DNA from: Candidatus Rifleibacteriota bacterium
Lineage (GTDB): Bacteria; Muiribacteriota; Ozemobacteria; Ozemobacterales; Ozemobacteraceae
Reading direction: 5' to 3'
Assembly: GCA_905236675.1 (NCBI GenBank)
Contig: CAJOND010000002.1
Coordinates: 22,010 to 86,009, forward strand
Length of the DNA stretch: 64,000 bases
Both the position numbers and the translations under genes were made by a program. Position 1 is the first letter of the stretch; each line of letters opens with the position of its first letter. The notes beneath the pieces are model-generated. The model was not told the origin of the DNA. It did not search any database and saw only the letters and a list, made by a program, of their open reading frames with translations. Shown piece after piece: positions 2,565 to 45,969 of the stretch.

Positions 2565-4670
2565 ATGGCAACAGCAACAAGTGGTAGTGCAATTAGAAGT
2601 GCCGTGCCCCTTTCTATGCTTTTTAAGAATCAAGATATCATCTTTGCCTTTGGTGTAGTAACCATAGTATTAGCTCTTATTATTCCCCTACCCTCTTTCT
2701 TATTAGATGTGTTATTGACATTAAATATTGCAATTTCATTAACTATATTATTAGTTGCAATTTTTAATCATGATGCACTACAATTTTCTGTATTTCCAAG
2801 TATATTGCTTGTTACAACTCTTTTTAGACTTGCATTAAATGTCAGCACTACTCGTATTATATTATCAGGACAAGGCCAAACAATGCATCTTATCAGATCT
2901 TTTGGTAATTTCGTTGTTGGTGGCAACTATGTTGTTGGTTTTGTTGTATTTTTAATACTAGTCTTAATACAATTCCTTGTTATTACAAAAGGTGCAGAAC
3001 GTGTAGCTGAAGTCCAGGCAAGATTTACTCTAGACGCTATGCCTATTAAAGGTATGGCAATTGATGCCGACTTAAACGCTGGTGCAATAGATCAGGATGA
3101 AGCTACAAGAAGACGATTAAACCTTTCCAGAGAAGCTGATTTTTTCGGTGCAATGGATGGTGCTAGTAAATTCGTTAAAAATGACTCTATAGCCGGCATA
3201 ATAATTACTGTTATTAATTTAATAGGTGGGATATTAATAGGAATTATTTCTCGTAATGAATCCGCTGCCGATGCACTAGCTGCTTATGCACTATATACAG
3301 TAGGTGATGGTCTTTGTTCTCAAATACCTAGTTTGCTTATATCTACTGCAACTGGTATTGTAGTAACACGTTCCAGATCTGATTCTAGTATGGGCGAAGA
3401 AGTAACTACACAGTTGTTCTCTAAAACAAAAATACTTGGTATTACTTCTGGTTCTCTACTATTTCTAGCTTTAATTCCAGGTTTACCTAAGCCAAGTTTC
3501 ATACTCTTAGCCATAATATTCGGAGTTTTAGCTTACATAAATAAGAAAAGTGATGATGAAGCTGAATTAAAACAACAAGAAACCAAAGAAGCAGAAAAGA
3601 AAGCAGAAGCTGCTAATAATGGTCCGGAAGATGTTTCTTCTCTTCTTACTGTAGATCAACTTGAATTAGAAATTGGTTATAATTTAATTCCTCTTTGCGA
3701 CACTAACCAAGGTGGCGATTTATTAAACAGAATTGCACTTATCAGACGCCAGATTGCCATGGATTTAGGTCTTATTGTTCCTGCAATCAGAATTAGAGAT
3801 AACATTCAATTAAATCAAAATGAATATGTATTTAAAATAAAAGGCAGTGAATATGCCTCTTATGAAATAATGCCAGACAATTATTTAGCAATGATAACAG
3901 AACCAGTTGCAAATAAAATAAATGGAATCGAAGTTCAAGAACCAGCCTTTGGTATGCCTGCAATTTGGATACCTGCTTCAATGAGAGACAAAGCTGAAAT
4001 GTCAGGGTATACGGTTGTTGATCCGTGCACTGTAATAGCTACACATCTTACCGAAATCATACGTAAAAATGCTGACGAAATCCTTGGTCGCCAAGAAGTT
4101 CAACAGTTACTTGACAGTATTAAAAAGACCAATCCGTTGCTTCATGATGAAGTTATTCCTAATATAATAAGTCAATCCGTTTTACTTAAAATTCTACAGA
4201 ATTTGCTTAGAGAAGGCGTTACTATAAAATATATTGGAAGTATATTAGAAGCTTTAGCTGATTGCAGAGGTATAAACGACCTTGACACTCTAACAGAAGT
4301 TGCTAGACAAGGACTTTCTAGACATATAGTCAAACCTTTACTCGGCTCGGACGGAGTATTGCGTGTTCTTTCTCTAGAACCTCAGCTTGAACAAAGCCTG
4401 GCTAATGCACTTCAAAAAGTTGATGGACAAGTTACACTTGCTATCGATCCAAATTCAGCATCAAAACTGCTTGAAAGAATAAGACTTAAAATTGAAGAAG
4501 TAATAAACGAAGGCTTTACGCCAATAATTCTTTGTAATTCTGCACTTCGACTTAGCATTAAGCGATTAACAGAACGAATGGCTCCAAAACTTAATGTTCT
4601 AGCTTATAATGAAATTCCAAATTCTATTAAGTTAGAATCAATAGGTTTAATATCTTTAAAGGGGAAATAA
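2565..4670 (+). CDS. flhA: Flagellar biosynthesis protein FlhA
   Basis: FHIPEP family: multi-TM N-terminus, ...ERVAEVQARFTLDAMPIKGMAIDADLNAGAIDQDEATRRR. Confidence 0.97.
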   Translation: MATATSGSAIRSAVPLSMLFKNQDIIFAFGVVTIVLALIIPLPSFLLDVLLTLNIAISLTILLVAIFNHDALQFSVFPSILLVTTLFRLALNVSTTRIILSGQGQTMHLIRSFGNFVVGGNYVVGFVVFLILVLIQFLVITKGAERVAEVQARFTLDAMPIKGMAIDADLNAGAIDQDEATRRRLNLSREADFFGAMDGASKFVKNDSIAGIIITVINLIGGILIGIISRNESAADALAAYALYTVGDGLCSQIPSLLISTATGIVVTRSRSDSSMGEEVTTQLFSKTKILGITSGSLLFLALIPGLPKPSFILLAIIFGVLAYINKKSDDEAELKQQETKEAEKKAEAANNGPEDVSSLLTVDQLELEIGYNLIPLCDTNQGGDLLNRIALIRRQIAMDLGLIVPAIRIRDNIQLNQNEYVFKIKGSEYASYEIMPDNYLAMITEPVANKINGIEVQEPAFGMPAIWIPASMRDKAEMSGYTVVDPCTVIATHLTEIIRKNADEILGRQEVQQLLDSIKKTNPLLHDEVIPNIISQSVLLKILQNLLREGVTIKYIGSILEALADCRGINDLDTLTEVARQGLSRHIVKPLLGSDGVLRVLSLEPQLEQSLANALQKVDGQVTLAIDPNSASKLLERIRLKIEEVINEGFTPIILCNSALRLSIKRLTERMAPKLNVLAYNEIPNSIKLESIGLISLKGK

Positions 4671-4673
4671 TAA

Positions 4674-5477
4674 ATGAAAGATCAAGCAACCTCTTTAAGA
4701 GCATTAAAAGCTAATTTTGATAGAATGGTTATAAAACCTAAAATCGAAACAGCTGATGATTTCTTGGAAAAAATGAAAGGAGTTTCACCTTTAAAAGCTT
4801 ATATACTGGTTTATCCTGACTATTTAAAGACCGAATTTCCTGAAATAGACGACTGGTTGTCTAAAATAGACAATACTTCTCAAACCTATCTTTGGGACCA
4901 GGCAGGATTAATTAGTAATAAGATACTTACTTCAAAACCTTCTGAATCTTTGTCTTTTCATGTATTATCAAAGCAGATGGCTATGCTGGACATGATAAGC
5001 AAAAATGATTCAGAACGTTATGAATTTTTAAGAAATTTATCAAACACTCTTGACAAACAAACAAAAATATGGGTTACCGTAAAAGCGAGTGAAATTTCAT
5101 ATTATACTTATTTATTCAATGCCTCAAATCTTCTTTACATCATGCTTCCAGACATTGAAGACAGTATTTTAAAGGGTTATGAAATTGTTAAAACAATTTA
5201 TAATTTGAAAATAGCAACGCCTATTCATCTTTTGGAATTTTCTTCAAAACCCTTTTTATCAGAAGATTTCCTGTGCAATAGAATAAAAAATGTTGCAAAA
5301 AAATTTTTAGGTATTGACCTTTATAATGGAGGAGTGGTACTCTCTAACTGTAGATACATCCCCCCAGTTAATGAAGGCAATCTAAACAGTATAAAAAATC
5401 AAACAGGCTCGTCCTGTTGTGATTTTATGTACTCTTTCAGTGAAAATATCATTAACTTACCATTAGGAACATATTAA
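4674..5477 (+). CDS. Uncharacterised protein, probable degenerate MinD/FlhG-like fold lacking Walker A
   Basis: Between flhA and flhG; C-terminal half aligns by eye with the adjacent FlhG (NRIKNVAKKFLGIDLYNGGVV vs RRLSNVAKEYLNNFEVHYLGCL); no P-loop. Confidence 0.55.
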   Translation: MKDQATSLRALKANFDRMVIKPKIETADDFLEKMKGVSPLKAYILVYPDYLKTEFPEIDDWLSKIDNTSQTYLWDQAGLISNKILTSKPSESLSFHVLSKQMAMLDMISKNDSERYEFLRNLSNTLDKQTKIWVTVKASEISYYTYLFNASNLLYIMLPDIEDSILKGYEIVKTIYNLKIATPIHLLEFSSKPFLSEDFLCNRIKNVAKKFLGIDLYNGGVVLSNCRYIPPVNEGNLNSIKNQTGSSCCDFMYSFSENIINLPLGTY

Positions 5478-5478
5478 A

Positions 5479-6426
5479 ATGACCGAACCAGTAATGAAAT
5501 CTATTGAAGCCATTATAGCTGAAACCAAACAGGAAATTCAGCCATATGTTTTCAAAAGACTTGAAGCAAGAACTCCAAGAAAAGCAGGAGAAAAAATTGC
5601 TCGAACTATTACTGTAACATCAGGAAAAGGCGGCGTTGGGAAAACAAGCTTAGTAGCTAATTTAGCAATTTGCCTTGCTCAAGCTGGTCAAAGAGTTATT
5701 ATCCTTGATGCAGACCTTGGTTTAGCTAATATAGATGTTGTATTTGGCATCAGACCTCGCTATAATCTCATGGATGTTATTAATGGCGACATGGATATAG
5801 ACAAAATAATGGTATCTGGTCCTTATGGTATACAAATAATAGCTGGTGGTTCTGGCGTTATGGAATTAGCTGATTTAGAAAATGATAAAGCAGAACGCCT
5901 TTTTAAACAGCTACATTTTTTAGAAGATAAAACAGATTTCTTATTAATTGATACAGGCGCAGGCATCAGCAAAAGTGTCATATCTTTTTGTCAAGCTGCA
6001 GATCAAGTAATTGTTATTAGCACTACGGAGCCAACTTCTTTAGTAGATGCTTTTGGAATAATAAAAGTTTTAAGCAATAAAAGACCTGATTCTTACGTAT
6101 ATGCTTTAGTCAATAAAGTTGAAAATAATAAAGAAGGAGAACAAATCTTTAGAAGACTATCCAACGTAGCTAAGGAATATTTAAATAATTTTGAGGTGCA
6201 TTACTTAGGCTGTCTAAAACAAGACCGCAATATGCACATAGCGGTAAGGCAACAAACGCCGCTGATGATGTTTTCACCAATGTCAACGGCGGCAGTAGAA
6301 ATAAGAAAAATTGTTTCAGAGTCGTTTTACGAGTTACCAGAACAATTACAAAATAAAGATAGTAATAACGAAGGTTTTTTCAAAAGGCTAGCAAAAATAT
6401 TTAAAGGAGGAAAAAATAACGAATGA
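5479..6426 (+). CDS. flhG: MinD/ParA-like ATPase FlhG (FleN)
   Basis: TSGKGGVGKTSLVANLA Walker A, LDADLGLANIDVVFGI, next to flhF. Confidence 0.95.
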   Translation: MTEPVMKSIEAIIAETKQEIQPYVFKRLEARTPRKAGEKIARTITVTSGKGGVGKTSLVANLAICLAQAGQRVIILDADLGLANIDVVFGIRPRYNLMDVINGDMDIDKIMVSGPYGIQIIAGGSGVMELADLENDKAERLFKQLHFLEDKTDFLLIDTGAGISKSVISFCQAADQVIVISTTEPTSLVDAFGIIKVLSNKRPDSYVYALVNKVENNKEGEQIFRRLSNVAKEYLNNFEVHYLGCLKQDRNMHIAVRQQTPLMMFSPMSTAAVEIRKIVSESFYELPEQLQNKDSNNEGFFKRLAKIFKGGKNNE

Positions 6427-7898
6427 CCGATTTATACGAAACCATCGTTGCTGAAACTCCTTTCGAAGCAAATATTATTGCAGAAGAACGATATGGTAAA
6501 AACTACGAAGTAGTTAAAACAGATACCGTAAAAGAAAAGACCTTTTGGGGTTATAAAGAAATGGTTAGAATTACTGTAAGACCATTTATTAACCACTTTA
6601 ACAGTCATATGAATCAAAATAATTATTCTTTACAAAACCATTCAACTCCTAACCAACTAGATTCATTAAGTCATTATTCAGATAATAATAGCTTAAAAGA
6701 AACTCAAAGTTCTTATGAACCACGACAGGTTTCTGTTCCAATAAATGTTGCCAAAAATAATTATAGAAAAGCACAATCAAAGTTACGTATGTCCATTGAT
6801 GGAATCCATGATATTCAGGAAGAAAACGTAGAAACAAAATCAGAAAAAATAACAAACAATAAAGATTATTCTGAACTAAGAGATGATTTGTTAGAAAGTA
6901 TTAACGAATTAAGAAATGGTCGCAAAAAAGATAGAACCATAGCCGGGGAAATAAAAAACAATAGCATAACATCTAGAAAACTTGAAGAACTTCAAGAAAA
7001 AATAGAACTACTCACAGCTACGGTTTCAAAAATGGCTCAAAATTCCAACAACTTTCTCAAAGAGAATCAATTACCCCAGGGACTTTACGACGTAGAAAAA
7101 GAATTACAAGATATAGAAACGCCCCAGGAAATAATAAAAGAACTATTCAGAGATTTAAGATTAAATTGCGATAAAGAAACTTTATGCAAATCAAAAGACA
7201 CCTATAATGCAATACATAGTTTAATAAAAAATAAACTTTCAATCTCTTCTGAATTTGAAATAAAAAAGAGTTCGGCACCGCAGGTAATAGTTTTAATGGG
7301 TCCAACAGGTGTTGGAAAGACAACAACTATAGCAAAACTAGCAGCTAAGTTTTGTTTCAACACTGAAAAACCTATAAAAGCATGTTTTTTAAATATAGAC
7401 TTCTATAAATTAGGTGCAAAAGATCAATTACAAAAATATGCTGATATATTCCAGATTCCACTAGAAGATATTAGTTCTATAGCTAGTTTAGATTACTTCT
7501 TAAACAAACACAAAGATGATGATTTGATTATTGTTGATACAGCAGGCAGAAGTCAATATGCACACGAAGATCTTGAAGAATTAAAAGCCTATGTAAGCAG
7601 AATTCCAAATGCAACAAAATATTTAACCGTTTCTTCAACATCTAAATACAGTGATTTAAAAGAAATAGTTGCCAGCTTTGGACGCATAGGTTTTGACCAT
7701 ATTATTTTAACAAAAACAGACGAAACCAAAACTATAGGTCCTGCCGTAGGAATGCTTCTAAAGTCTAATAAGTCACTGGCCTATATAACTCATGGACAGG
7801 CAGTTCCAGAAGACTACAGAATTGCAGACTTCGATTTTTTTGAAGAAAAAATATTTCATTCTTTACAAAACTTCAATAATCATAGACAAGTTTTATAA
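6423..7898 (+). CDS. flhF: Flagellar biosynthesis SRP-like GTPase FlhF
   Basis: NG domain: MGPTGVGKTTTIAKLAAKF, DTAGRSQ, TKTDET. Confidence 0.94.
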   Translation: MTDLYETIVAETPFEANIIAEERYGKNYEVVKTDTVKEKTFWGYKEMVRITVRPFINHFNSHMNQNNYSLQNHSTPNQLDSLSHYSDNNSLKETQSSYEPRQVSVPINVAKNNYRKAQSKLRMSIDGIHDIQEENVETKSEKITNNKDYSELRDDLLESINELRNGRKKDRTIAGEIKNNSITSRKLEELQEKIELLTATVSKMAQNSNNFLKENQLPQGLYDVEKELQDIETPQEIIKELFRDLRLNCDKETLCKSKDTYNAIHSLIKNKLSISSEFEIKKSSAPQVIVLMGPTGVGKTTTIAKLAAKFCFNTEKPIKACFLNIDFYKLGAKDQLQKYADIFQIPLEDISSIASLDYFLNKHKDDDLIIVDTAGRSQYAHEDLEELKAYVSRIPNATKYLTVSSTSKYSDLKEIVASFGRIGFDHIILTKTDETKTIGPAVGMLLKSNKSLAYITHGQAVPEDYRIADFDFFEEKIFHSLQNFNNHRQVL

Positions 7899-7993: not shown

Positions 7994-10258
7994 TTGATGG
8001 ATATTGATCTATCCCAATATATGGGGATGTATATCGACGGTTCCAAAGAGAATCTCGATTTAATGGATAAATACCTACTGGCTTTAGAACAAGATCCGAG
8101 TAATCTTGAAGCAGTTGGAGAAATATTTAGAGCAGCTCATACTCTTAAAGGGATGTCTGCAACTATGGGTTTTGAAAAAGTAGCTCATCTGACCCATGTT
8201 ATGGAAAACATCCTGGATAAACTTCGAAACCATCAATTAGATGTTACACCTCCAATTATAGATTTGGTTTTTGAAACTTTTGATGTTTTAAGAGTTTTAA
8301 TTAATGACAGTATAGAATCTACAGATTCAGGAGTAGATCTGGATGGTATTGTTGCGAAACTAAACGCAGCAGCAAATGGGCAGGCTCCTAGTGCAAAAGT
8401 TGAAGCCGCTCCTGCTCAAGCCCAAGCAACTTCCGCTTCATCTCAAGCTAGTAGTTCTAATAGCGGTGCAGATTCTGCAAAAGCTGCAGAATTAGCTGAT
8501 ATAACAATAAACGAATTTGAAAATCAGGTTCTTCTAGAAGCTGCAAATAACAATCAAAATATATTATTAATAAAAGTAACTTTAGTTCCAGACTGTCTGT
8601 TGAAAGCACCGAGAGCTTTTATGGTTACTAGAGGTTTAGAAGAGCTAAGTTTTGATACTATTAAATCAGTTCCAGACACAAAAGATATTGAAGAAGAAAA
8701 ATTTGATTTATCTTTTAAGATGGTCGTGATAGGTCCAAAAACAGAAGCAGATGCCAGAGATGCTATAGAAGGCATTTCCGAAATAGAATCTGTTTTAATC
8801 ATAAAGCTGTCTCCAAATGATTTTAAAATACAGTCTAGTATGGTTCAAGCACCTGCCCCTGCCCCTCGTCCAACCCCTGCACCTCCACCACCTCCCACAC
8901 CGCCTGTTGCCACACCAGTAGCAACACCAGTGATGCCCAGTGCTCCAGTCGTGCAGCCTGCGATGCCAACTACTCCTCCGCCTACACCGCCTGTTGTACC
9001 TCCTGCAGCTCCACCACCTCCTAACAAACCAGCTCCTCCAAAGCCAGCAGCTAAAGGTGGTGCTGAAAAGCATGCTACTCAAACAGTTCGTGTCGATATG
9101 CGTCGTCTTGACGAACTCATGAATCTTGCTGGGGAACTCGTTATCAACAGAACACGTTTATTTGAAATAGGTGGCAAGCATAAGTTAAAAGATCTTAATG
9201 AAGCTCTGACACGCGTTTCTCAGATAAGTACCTCATTGCAAAGTGTTGTTATGCAGGTTCGAATGGTTCCTGTAGAACAGCTTTTTGAAAGATTTCCAAG
9301 AATGGTGCGCGACCTTTCCAAAAAGCTTAATAAGAAAATAAATCTTGTGGTTGAAGGTAAGGAAACCGAAATGGATAGAACGGTTATAGATGAAATCGGA
9401 GATCCAATGGTTCACCTAATAAGAAACTCCATAGACCACGGGATTGAGTTGCCTGAAGAACGTATTGCAAAAGGCAAACCAGAAGTTGGAACCATAACTC
9501 TAATAGCTCGTCATGAAGGTAACAATGTATTAATAGAAGTTAAGGATGATGGCAAAGGCGTTGACCCAACAGTCGTAGGAAGAAAAGCTGTAGAAAAAGG
9601 CATGTTTACTCAGGAACAAATTAATAAAATGAGTCCTGAAGACATTCAGAAAATCATTTACCTGCCAGGTTTTTCTACTGCAGCCACAGTAAGTGATATT
9701 TCTGGTCGTGGTGTTGGGATGGATGCTGTTAAAGCAAAACTTGAAGACCTTAATGGAGTATTAGAGCTAGAATCAAAAGTCAACGAAGGATCAAAAGTAA
9801 CAATCAAATTACCTTTGACATTGGCAATTTTGCAAGCTCTAATGGTAAGAATCGGCAAAGAAATATTTGCTATTCCTTTGGGTTCTGTTCAAGAAACAAT
9901 GGATATAACAAAATCTGACATTAATATAGTTCAGCATCAAGAAGTTACTTTATTACGTGGTGATGTACTTCCAATCATAAGGTTAAGAAACATTTTAAAT
10001 GTTCCGACTACGGAAGAAGAAAAAAAAGCTTTAGATGCCAAAGAAGATGAAATATCAATAGTTGTATGTTCTTCAGGGGAAAAACGAGCAGGTTTTATGG
10101 TAGATGAACTACAGGGACAACAAGAAATAGTTATTAAGTCTCTTGGAAACCTGCTTAGCGGAATTCCAGGAATAATGGGTGCAACAATGCGTGGTGACGG
10201 TGACGTTGCATTGATTCTTGATATACCTGCTTTCTTCCAAAAAGGGCAGTCAATGTAG
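7994..10258 (+). CDS. cheA: Chemotaxis histidine kinase CheA
   Basis: HPt (AAHTLKGMSATMGF), P2-like segment, Pro-rich linker, dimerisation domain, HATPase (NSIDHGIE, DDGKGVD, GRGVGMDAV), C-terminal CheW-like domain. Confidence 0.97.
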   Translation: MMDIDLSQYMGMYIDGSKENLDLMDKYLLALEQDPSNLEAVGEIFRAAHTLKGMSATMGFEKVAHLTHVMENILDKLRNHQLDVTPPIIDLVFETFDVLRVLINDSIESTDSGVDLDGIVAKLNAAANGQAPSAKVEAAPAQAQATSASSQASSSNSGADSAKAAELADITINEFENQVLLEAANNNQNILLIKVTLVPDCLLKAPRAFMVTRGLEELSFDTIKSVPDTKDIEEEKFDLSFKMVVIGPKTEADARDAIEGISEIESVLIIKLSPNDFKIQSSMVQAPAPAPRPTPAPPPPPTPPVATPVATPVMPSAPVVQPAMPTTPPPTPPVVPPAAPPPPNKPAPPKPAAKGGAEKHATQTVRVDMRRLDELMNLAGELVINRTRLFEIGGKHKLKDLNEALTRVSQISTSLQSVVMQVRMVPVEQLFERFPRMVRDLSKKLNKKINLVVEGKETEMDRTVIDEIGDPMVHLIRNSIDHGIELPEERIAKGKPEVGTITLIARHEGNNVLIEVKDDGKGVDPTVVGRKAVEKGMFTQEQINKMSPEDIQKIIYLPGFSTAATVSDISGRGVGMDAVKAKLEDLNGVLELESKVNEGSKVTIKLPLTLAILQALMVRIGKEIFAIPLGSVQETMDITKSDINIVQHQEVTLLRGDVLPIIRLRNILNVPTTEEEKKALDAKEDEISIVVCSSGEKRAGFMVDELQGQQEIVIKSLGNLLSGIPGIMGATMRGDGDVALILDIPAFFQKGQSM

Positions 10259-10292: not shown

Positions 10293-11813
10293 TTGGAAAT
10301 AGATCTTTCTGAATATATGGGAGCCTACATTGACGGTGCCCGTGAAAATCTAGATTTGATGGACAAAAGACTGCTAGAATTAGAGCAGAATCCTTCAAAC
10401 ACAGAAGCTGTAGGTGAAATATTCAGAGCCGCTCATACTCTTAAAGGAATGTCGGCTACAATGGGCTTTGAAAAAATAGCCCATCTCACCCATGAAATGG
10501 AAAACCTTCTCGACAAACTGAGAAACAATCAGTTAGCCGTTACTCCTCCTGTTATTGATTTAATATTTGAAACTTTTGATATTTTAAGAACCTTAGTTGA
10601 TGACAGTATAAACCAAACAGAATCAACTATAGATTTGGGTGAAATATCAGCAAAACTTGGAGCAATGGCTAATGGAACAGCTCCATCTCAAACTGCTTCT
10701 CAACCAGCAGTTAGTAATACTCCAGCATCATCTCAACAGTATTCAAGTAACAATGTTGCAAAATCTAATAATACTGATATTTCAGAATTTGGTCTTTCAG
10801 AATTAGAGCTATCTAGCTTGCACGAATCCAAAGATAATAACAAACATGTAATACTATTAAAAGTATCGCTTGTTTCTGACTGCTTGTTAAAAGGTCCTCG
10901 CGTATTTATGGTAATGCGTGCAATAGAGGAATGCCAAGCTGAAATAGCAAAATCATTACCAGATGTAAAAGACTTAGAAAATGAAAAATTTGATAAATCT
11001 TTCAAAATGATTTTGATTTCTTCTCAAAGCTGTCAAGAAGTTAAAGAAGCTATTGAAGGGATTTCAGAAATAGAAAGTGTTGAAACTATAGAGTTAGATT
11101 TATCGGAAACATATGGTGAAACCGACAATTCTACTCCAGTAGCTAAACCAGTTTATTCTGCACCTAGTCAGCCAATTTCTCCACCACCAGTTCAAATTCA
11201 GAAACCAGTTCAAGCTGCTCCCCAACCACGAACTCCTGTTTATACACAGCAAGCCTCAACACCTGTTTCTATTCCTCAAGCTCCGTCCCAACCTTCTATT
11301 GTTACTCCTGCAGCTCCTTCGCAACCACCTCAAACACCACCAGAAGAACAAGAAGAAGAAAAAGAAGTTATTGGTTTTACTCAAATTATTACATTTGTTT
11401 TAGCGGGTGAAACTTACGCTCTGGAAATTCAACAAGTTGAAACAATCATTAATATTACCAATATAACAAGGGTTCCTAAAGCCCCATCTCATATTGATGG
11501 TGTAATAAATCTACGTGGGGAAATAATTCCTGTTATAAACACTCGCCGAAGATTAAAACTTGGTGAAATAGAAAAGTCCCCAAATAATCAGATTATTATT
11601 CTTAATTTCGAAGAAGAAAAAGTTAAAGTTGGATTTCTAGTAGATAGCGTCAAAGAAGTTAAAATTCTACCAGAAACTTCTATTGAACCACCTACTAGAG
11701 TTAGTGAAAGTGTAGATATTGAATATTTACGTGGTGTAGGTAAAATAGATAAAGATATTATTATCCTTCTAAATGCTCACAGAATAATTTTTGATAATCC
11801 AAAAGAAGAATAA
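10293..11813 (+). CDS. HPt - P2-like - Pro-rich linker - CheW fusion protein lacking the CheA kinase core
   Basis: TTG start with upstream AAGGAG; HPt AAHTLKGMSATMGFEKIAHLTHEMENLLDKL nearly identical to CheA; C-terminal CheW (TFVLAGETYALEIQQVETIINITNITRVPKAPSHIDGVINLRGEIIPVI); no HATPase motifs. Confidence 0.93.
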   Translation: MEIDLSEYMGAYIDGARENLDLMDKRLLELEQNPSNTEAVGEIFRAAHTLKGMSATMGFEKIAHLTHEMENLLDKLRNNQLAVTPPVIDLIFETFDILRTLVDDSINQTESTIDLGEISAKLGAMANGTAPSQTASQPAVSNTPASSQQYSSNNVAKSNNTDISEFGLSELELSSLHESKDNNKHVILLKVSLVSDCLLKGPRVFMVMRAIEECQAEIAKSLPDVKDLENEKFDKSFKMILISSQSCQEVKEAIEGISEIESVETIELDLSETYGETDNSTPVAKPVYSAPSQPISPPPVQIQKPVQAAPQPRTPVYTQQASTPVSIPQAPSQPSIVTPAAPSQPPQTPPEEQEEEKEVIGFTQIITFVLAGETYALEIQQVETIINITNITRVPKAPSHIDGVINLRGEIIPVINTRRRLKLGEIEKSPNNQIIILNFEEEKVKVGFLVDSVKEVKILPETSIEPPTRVSESVDIEYLRGVGKIDKDIIILLNAHRIIFDNPKEE

Positions 11814-44661: not shown

Positions 44662-45969
44662 GTGAGTGACGCTGTACTCTCGCAAGAAGAAATCAATGCT
44701 CTTTTAAATGGAAGTTTAGGAGGAGGAAGCTCGTCTATCGCAGATGCTTCTCCTGCTCCTAGTTCTGTACCACCTGCAGCTCCAATGCCGAGTAGTGCTG
44801 GTTCAGCAGCTAATTTTACTGAAGAAGACATTAACCAACTTACTGAAGTTGCTAAACTAGCTTTAGGTGCGACTTCTTCTGTTGTTCAAATGTTCGTAAA
44901 CCAGCAAAATGCTGAAATCGCCTTAGAACAGGTCAGAGTAATCTCTTATTCTGATTTGGTTAGAGAATGTGCCAGTGACGAATATTTGGTATTAAAAATA
45001 GCTTATATTGAAGGTTTTGATGGGCTTACCTATCTGGTCTTAAAAAAATCAACTGTTGCAATAATAGGTGATTTGGCTATGGGTGGTTCTGGCTTGAATG
45101 TGGAATTTCAAGAAATGCATATTTCTGCAAATCAGGAAATGCTTAACCAAATGATGGGAAAAACCACAACAAGTCTCGCTGAAATATTCAAAAAGCGCGT
45201 AGATATATCTCCGCCAACTCCAGAAATGATAAATTTTAGTAAGGGAACACCTGCTGACATGCCAGATTTTCATGAAGGAGCTGATTTCTTAAGAATAGGA
45301 TATAATCTTAAATTAGGTGATGTAGCTATTACTGAAATGATTCAGCTTTATCCTGCTGATTTTGCATTGCTTATGGCTCATGAACTAAATAAACCTGCCA
45401 AAGAACCTCCAAAACCTCAGGTTGCACCTCCTCCCCCTAATGCGGGAATGCCACCAATGATGGATCCAATGCAGCAACAGCCTATTCCAGGTCAAATACC
45501 TGGACAAATGCCTGGTATGATGCCTAATATGGGTATGCCAATGCCTGGTCAAATGCCTGGTATGATGCCTAATATGGGTATGCCAATGCCTGGTCAAATG
45601 CCTGGTATGATGCCTAATATGGGTATGCCAATGCCTGGTCAGATGCCTAATATGTTCCAAGGTTCACCTGCCGAATTCGGTATGTTACAAATGCCTGGTG
45701 GAATCGGTTTACAATCTAATATAGATTTACTTCTTGATGTTCCATTAGAAATAACCGTTGAATTAGGCAGAACTAGAATGTTAATAAAAGATGTACTTGA
45801 ATTAGGTATAGGTTCTGTAGTAGAGTTAAATAAGTTAGCTGGTGAATCAGTTGAAGTATTTGTTAATAATAAATTAATTGCTAAAGGTGAAGTAGTTGTT
45901 ATTGATGAAAACTTTGCGGTTCGCATTACAAATATAATCAATCCACAAGATAGATTACAGGCTCTCTAA
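44662..45969 (+). CDS. fliY: Flagellar motor switch protein FliY/FliN (CheC-like domain plus FliN SpoA domain)
   Basis: GTG start; LSQEEINALLNGSLGG motif; CheC-like middle; Met/Pro/Gly repeat linker; C-terminal DVPLEITVELGRTRMLIKDVLELGIGSVVELNKLAGE. Confidence 0.9.
   Translation: MSDAVLSQEEINALLNGSLGGGSSSIADASPAPSSVPPAAPMPSSAGSAANFTEEDINQLTEVAKLALGATSSVVQMFVNQQNAEIALEQVRVISYSDLVRECASDEYLVLKIAYIEGFDGLTYLVLKKSTVAIIGDLAMGGSGLNVEFQEMHISANQEMLNQMMGKTTTSLAEIFKKRVDISPPTPEMINFSKGTPADMPDFHEGADFLRIGYNLKLGDVAITEMIQLYPADFALLMAHELNKPAKEPPKPQVAPPPPNAGMPPMMDPMQQQPIPGQIPGQMPGMMPNMGMPMPGQMPGMMPNMGMPMPGQMPGMMPNMGMPMPGQMPNMFQGSPAEFGMLQMPGGIGLQSNIDLLLDVPLEITVELGRTRMLIKDVLELGIGSVVELNKLAGESVEVFVNNKLIAKGEVVVIDENFAVRITNIINPQDRLQAL
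45508..45642 (+). repeat. Tandem 45-bp repeat, 3 copies, encoding MPGMMPNMGMPMPGQ
   Basis: ATGCCTGGTATGATGCCTAATATGGGTATGCCAATGCCTGGTCAA starts at 45508, 45553 and 45598; only the last base of copy 3 differs. Confidence 0.95.

Follow-up and report, generated by a model that had tools for sequence, protein, structure and literature searches.

An HPt-P2-CheW gene beside cheA

We analysed a stretch of 64,000 nucleotides (hereafter the window) of contig CAJOND010000002.1, which belongs to the draft genome (5.17 Mb, 228 contigs) of a gut-type Candidatus Riflebacteria species. Downstream of cheA, an open reading frame (ORF) encodes a protein that combines HPt, P2 and CheW domains (Table 1). A GGAG motif is located 9 bases 5' of its start codon, and the ORF scan revealed no internal stops within the 506 codons. 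The Pfam scores of all three domains were well over the cut-off. Neither H-kinase_dim nor HATPase_c was matched by Pfam in this protein or in the 19 other full-length orthologues, and a Response_reg domain was also not matched in the protein. The ORF and Pfam analyses hence confirmed what had originally been predicted from the sequence letters, namely an HPt-P2-CheW protein without dimerisation and ATPase domains next to a full CheA.

The HPt residues His48, Lys51, His67 and Glu70 are all present. The phosphorylatable histidine that the original prediction had located in the motif AAHTLKG is His48, and the domain around it is under purifying selection (see below). The predicted HPt model resembles CheA P1 structures with TM-scores of 0.86–0.90, depending on the target. 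The P2 domain matched the P2 domain of T. maritima CheA in complex with CheY (PDB 1u0s) both in sequence (E=1.8e-10) and in the fold of the predicted model (TM-score 0.94, root-mean-square deviation 0.9). For the CheW part of the model, which was weakly modelled and of low confidence, CheW structures ranked over P5 structures. An NLRG-type motif is kept in this domain.

Table 1 Features of the window discussed in the text. The table indicates the feature, its position in the window, the strand and the basis of the assignment or a remark.
Feature	Position	Strand	Basis or remark
HPt-P2-CheW fusion gene, 506 amino acids, TTG start	10293..11813	+	ORF, Pfam, 20 full-length orthologues
HPt domain, residues 8-100	10314..10592	+	Pfam PF01627, 63 bits
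Codon of phosphorylatable His48	10434..10436	+	Residue 48; aligned with the H of AAHTLKG in CheA
P2 response-regulator docking domain, residues 189-265	10857..11087	+	Pfam PF07194, 72 bits
Pro-rich linker between P2 and CheW, approximately residues 276-359	11118..11369	+	Low model confidence (pLDDT), high nonsynonymous divergence (dN)
CheW domain, residues 364-499, adaptor-CheW lineage	11382..11789	+	Pfam PF01584, 116 bits
cheA	7994..10258	+	Pfam: all five domains (HPt, P2, dimerisation, HATPase, P5)
Flagellar cluster flhA, unknown 267-amino-acid gene, flhG-like gene, flhF	2565..7898	+	Upstream of cheA
267-amino-acid gene between flhA and flhG-like gene	4674..5477	+	Position conserved in relatives
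435-amino-acid ORF	44662..45969	+	CheC-like match

Origin and distribution of the fusion gene

In comparison to the CheA of the same genome, the HPt domain is 79% identical and the P2 domain 55%. The original description of both as near-duplicates of CheA is therefore apt for the HPt domain and applies only loosely to P2. The CheW domain shows 39% identity to the genome's own CheW and 23% to its own CheA P5, and the corresponding values across genomes are 35–46% and 19–26%. In the CheW tree, the fusion CheW domains of 22 copies formed one clade (support 100/99) on the adaptor-CheW side. The CheA P5 domains all fell on the other side of a branch with 100/100 support. The fusion P2 domains likewise formed one clade (99/97) as opposed to the CheA P2 domains, and this tree indicates one duplication from CheA. 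The trees show that the gene is a fusion of single origin, composed of a duplicated CheA front half (HPt and P2) and an adaptor CheW, and that it did not arise from CheA by loss of the core. The view of the protein as a CheA with the kinase core removed was abandoned, since its C-terminal domain is an adaptor CheW and not P5. The CheW/P5 tree rules out an internal deletion of CheA. That cheA and the fusion gene were linked by repeated re-duplications or underwent gene conversion is ruled out for P2, which formed one clade in 100% of the bootstrap trees, while HPt alone is too short and too conserved to decide this question.

The HPt and P2 domains are thus paralogous copies of the N-terminal half of CheA, whose phosphosite motif and P2 fold they share, and the HPt domain carries a phosphorylatable histidine as in CheA. 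In contrast to CheA, the protein contains no dimerisation domain and no HATPase_c, and its C-terminal domain is not of the P5 lineage. With CheW it shares the side of the CheW/P5 split and a CheW-like constraint (mean identity 76% for the fusion CheW domain versus 73% for the stand-alone CheW of the family). However, the domain constitutes a clade of its own and does not make up a single-domain protein, as HPt and P2 precede it in an N-terminal extension of 360 residues. The combination of CheW and receiver domain that characterises CheV is not present.

The full-length architecture was detected in 20 of the 24 genomes of the Riflebacteria family that were searched. By sequence, the relatives are Riflebacteria metagenome-assembled genomes (from rumen, goat abomasum and other sources), Ca. 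Rifleibacterium and Ca. Ozemobacter. In G007 and G015, the front of cheA runs into the end of one contig and the corresponding CheW half is located at the end of a second one, G012 contains cheA fragments only, and neither cheA nor the fusion gene was found in G016 (70% complete). That the contigs of several relatives break in the repeated cheA/fusion region could speak for a broken cheA, i.e. a pseudogene, a frameshift or an assembly artefact, which the original prediction had named as a finding that would count against it. We regard the probability of this as next to nil and rejected it, because the orthologous ORFs are intact and collinear in 20 genomes from 10 genera (497–601 amino acids), are under purifying selection and carry a CheW domain that is not P5-derived.

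The fusion gene is located immediately 3' of cheA in 18 of the 20 genomes. Of the remaining two, G021 is cut by a contig end and G010 carries the gene in another neighbourhood. The order flhA, 267-amino-acid gene, flhG-like gene, flhF, cheA and fusion gene is conserved in relatives of several genera. The 267-amino-acid gene itself has no Pfam match.

Outside the family, 16 genomes from other families of the same phylum were searched, and all of them lack the architecture. Among 161 genomes of two other phyla, P2 proteins with this layout were not seen either, in a survey that represents a sample and not a census and that took in P2-bearing frames, not P2-less HPt-CheW proteins. P2 domains occur in 50 of these 161 genomes, nearly all of them in CheA-sized frames. 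The short P2 frames that were opened (which did not include the contig-edge fragments of G110) turned out to be contig-edge pieces of CheA or weak matches without CheW. A Riflebacteria-type pair of cheA and HPt-P2-CheW gene is present in DYKG01000016.1 (L045), which is titled Candidatus Methylomirabilis; this record is probably misnamed or misbinned.

Within the family, P2 is confined to the flagellar CheA and the fusion protein, also where a genome encodes 8–12 CheA-type kinases. This suggests that the two proteins are dedicated partners. Some other unusual proteins were noticed during the survey. G009, which has 12 CheA-type kinases, encodes proteins of 643 and 627 amino acids with CheW domains at both ends on its contig C8 (L098:768-2696 and L098:7130-9010). 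Two possible further HPt spin-offs were observed in G004, namely a 493-amino-acid frame with three tandem HPt matches (L123:3279-4757) and a 264-amino-acid protein without CheW or P2 matches, the HPt domain of which is 56% identical to the fusion HPt (L122:2351-3142).

One CheA was found in the genome from which the window originates (a single H-kinase_dim match), and its two P2 domains are located in this CheA and in the HPt-P2-CheW protein, respectively. The absence of a stand-alone cheW from the window had been noted earlier, and this is correct. The rest of the genome, however, encodes two stand-alone CheW-type proteins, a canonical CheW of 161 amino acids on contig C32 and a divergent CheW-like protein of 177 amino acids on contig C48 (L004:1318-1851). 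The fusion protein is therefore not the sole coupler of the genome, and the suggestion that it may be a main coupling protein for want of cheW does not hold in view of the canonical CheW. The match of the C48 protein to the CheW profile is limited to the initial two thirds of the profile, and partial matches of a similar kind (profile 2-89) were also seen in G007, G012, G015 and G020. The genome also has five MCP matches, a cheR-cheB pair and, on contig C16, a CheC-type phosphatase. The 435-amino-acid ORF with a CheC-like match in the window probably encodes a FliY-type flagellar switch protein that has CheY-P phosphatase activity.

Constraint on the HPt domain and loss of its histidine

Among close relatives, dN of the HPt domain is about 0.00–0.03 in comparison to a synonymous divergence (dS) of 0.47–1.77. 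The P2 and CheW domains of the fusion protein are also constrained, while the linkers are nearly free; in the Pro-rich linker, dN is 0.4–0.5 between several congeners. These rates indicate that the HPt, P2 and CheW domains evolve under purifying selection. In orthologues with an intact HPt, the mean identity is 77% for HPt and 57% for P2. His48 and Lys51 are retained in 18 of the 20 orthologues, and the network of His48, Lys51, His67 and Glu70 is retained in nearly all members with an intact HPt. The strong constraint on HPt in these members argues that phosphotransfer matters there.

In the remaining two orthologues, from G013 and G023, the position of His48 is occupied by alanine and the motif is gone. 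The HPt identity to the intact members is down to 0.41 (G013) and 0.36 (G023), and the CheW identity is still 0.60 and 0.78, respectively. In both fusion proteins Pfam detects P2 and CheW, but not HPt, and the HPt domain of CheA itself is intact in both genomes (in G023 on a separate contig fragment). The CheA-core tree requires two separate losses of the histidine, and a single loss was seen in no bootstrap tree. The HPt histidine hence disappeared in two independent events that left P2 and CheW in place. A grouping of the two degenerate HPt domains appeared in the HPt+P2 tree and was rejected, being flagged as long-branch attraction. Loss of the histidine in orthologues had been put forward as evidence against the original prediction; it applies to these two orthologues, which nevertheless keep P2 and CheW, and not to the other 18.

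That P2 and CheW are kept in the lineages with a degenerate HPt argues that docking alone is useful. It may be speculated that the conserved task is generally that of an extra P2, which would dock CheY or CheB in the array via the CheW domain, and that the HPt domain is a tolerated or structural by-product of the duplication. This would be in line with the two independent losses of the histidine and its hydrogen-bond network. Furthermore, a member with a degenerate HPt was still modelled as a five-helix bundle, though intact relatives in the alignment bias this model. Nevertheless, we consider this explanation unlikely, because in 18 of the 20 members no other domain is as conserved as HPt, which shows a very low dN and a catalytic helix identical to that of CheA. 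This would not be expected of a tolerated by-product. Since the histidine was lost in two of the 20 orthologues and P2 and CheW were kept, phosphotransfer is probably neither the only nor an indispensable function of the fusion protein.

A candidate array adaptor with its own phosphotransfer site

Chemoreceptor arrays are usually described as being composed of receptors, CheA and CheW, with CheV as an optional second adaptor. The features reported here fit an array-docked extra phosphotransfer or CheY-docking element. The explanation that we favour, and that sequence comparison renders reasonably probable, is that the fusion protein serves as an accessory chemoreceptor-array adaptor, which offers an extra HPt substrate and a response-regulator docking site. 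According to the trees, it originated once, in or before the ancestor of the Riflebacteria family, through the joining of a duplicated N-terminal half of CheA to an adaptor CheW via a long Pro-rich linker. The CheW domain may be seated in the CheW/P5 ring under the receptors, beside CheA, and the tethered P2 domain would recruit the same response regulator or regulators as the P2 domain of CheA. In most members, the tethered HPt could be phosphorylated in trans by the P4 domain of the neighbouring CheA or, alternatively, be charged through back-phosphorylation by CheY-P, and it would then pass its phosphate to the P2-bound regulator or exchange it with this regulator. As an outcome, the array would have an enlarged or buffered pool of HPt and docking sites. 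In the two lineages with a degenerate HPt, a docking-only adaptor would remain.

Several observations weigh against this explanation. HPt is dispensable in two lineages, and since HPt and P2 are intact in CheA itself, there is no obvious need for an extra copy. In G010 (64% complete) the fusion gene is located away from cheA, and CheA was not found. Moreover, the AlphaFold model of the CheW domain is poor and was based on a shallow alignment (20 rows).

With regard to the mode of action, the closest analogies of the fusion protein would be CheV, of which it is a mirror image, or a CheA3 in which a kinase was never present. CheV is an extra array adaptor that has been proposed to act as a phosphate sink (PMC4742279). 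Both proteins combine a CheW domain with a partner of the phosphotransfer module on one chain, but CheV carries a receiver domain (Asp), whereas the fusion protein carries HPt (His) and P2. By analogy, the HPt domain could mainly take phosphate back from CheY-P and thereby shorten or smooth signals instead of forwarding kinase flux. For R. sphaeroides, the existence of reverse phosphotransfer and of phosphate sinks is established (PMC2924250), and CheV has been proposed to be such a sink, as mentioned above. We regard this as rather improbable, as the genome already has the CheC-type phosphatase on contig C16 and the CheC-like domain in the 435-amino-acid protein of the window. In chemical terms, phosphorylated HPt is both donor and acceptor, and sequence cannot separate a sink from the accessory adaptor described above.

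In R. sphaeroides, CheA3 does not autophosphorylate, and CheA3 and CheA4 jointly form one functional CheA (PMC10542144). Like CheA3, the fusion protein has an HPt and a CheW domain without a working kinase and is encoded in an operon with a partner kinase, and following the same logic it might be the main phosphodonor, with CheA providing the ATPase only. CheA3 is, however, a full CheA that has decayed and retains vestiges of the kinase, P2 and HPt domains within a middle region of 794 amino acids, while the fusion protein is compact and its P2 intact. CheA4 lacks an HPt domain, whereas the partner CheA here is complete, including an intact HPt with its histidine. The complete partner argues against a strict split kinase. 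An intact HPt and P2 were also found in the partner CheA of the family members where it was assembled, and the HPt domain of the fusion protein is degenerate in two lineages; we therefore give this possibility very little credit. ParP (PMC5706961) and CheWS, a CheW-CheR-like protein (PMC10653840), are accessories whose CheW/P5-like domain enters the core unit of the array. Their other domains localise arrays or sense S-adenosylmethionine, and in contrast to the fusion protein neither of them has HPt or P2.

HATPase_c is present in every CheA of a survey of CheA architectures (PMC10542144), and a survey of CheW architectures removed all Hpt- or HATPase-containing architectures as presumed CheA (PMC10653840). 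Proteins such as the HPt-P2-CheW fusion therefore fall between both surveys. In the literature on chemotaxis in Riflebacteria we found nothing on an HPt-P2-CheW protein, and this kind of protein is not described in the literature examined.

We tentatively suggest, at somewhat less than even chances, that one Riflebacteria family has a dedicated extra core component in its arrays, i.e. an adaptor with its own phosphorylatable HPt and docking domain, so that the kinase output is spread over CheA and adaptor positions. The family-wide adaptor would carry the opposite half of the phosphotransfer reaction in comparison to CheV. If this is true, the composition of the array would set the number of HPt domains per kinase, and the number of phosphotransfer sites could be adjusted independently of that of the kinases. 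The two lineages without a functional HPt would then represent natural mutants that turned docking-only, and the two independent losses may offer a way to separate the docking from the phosphotransfer role of the protein.
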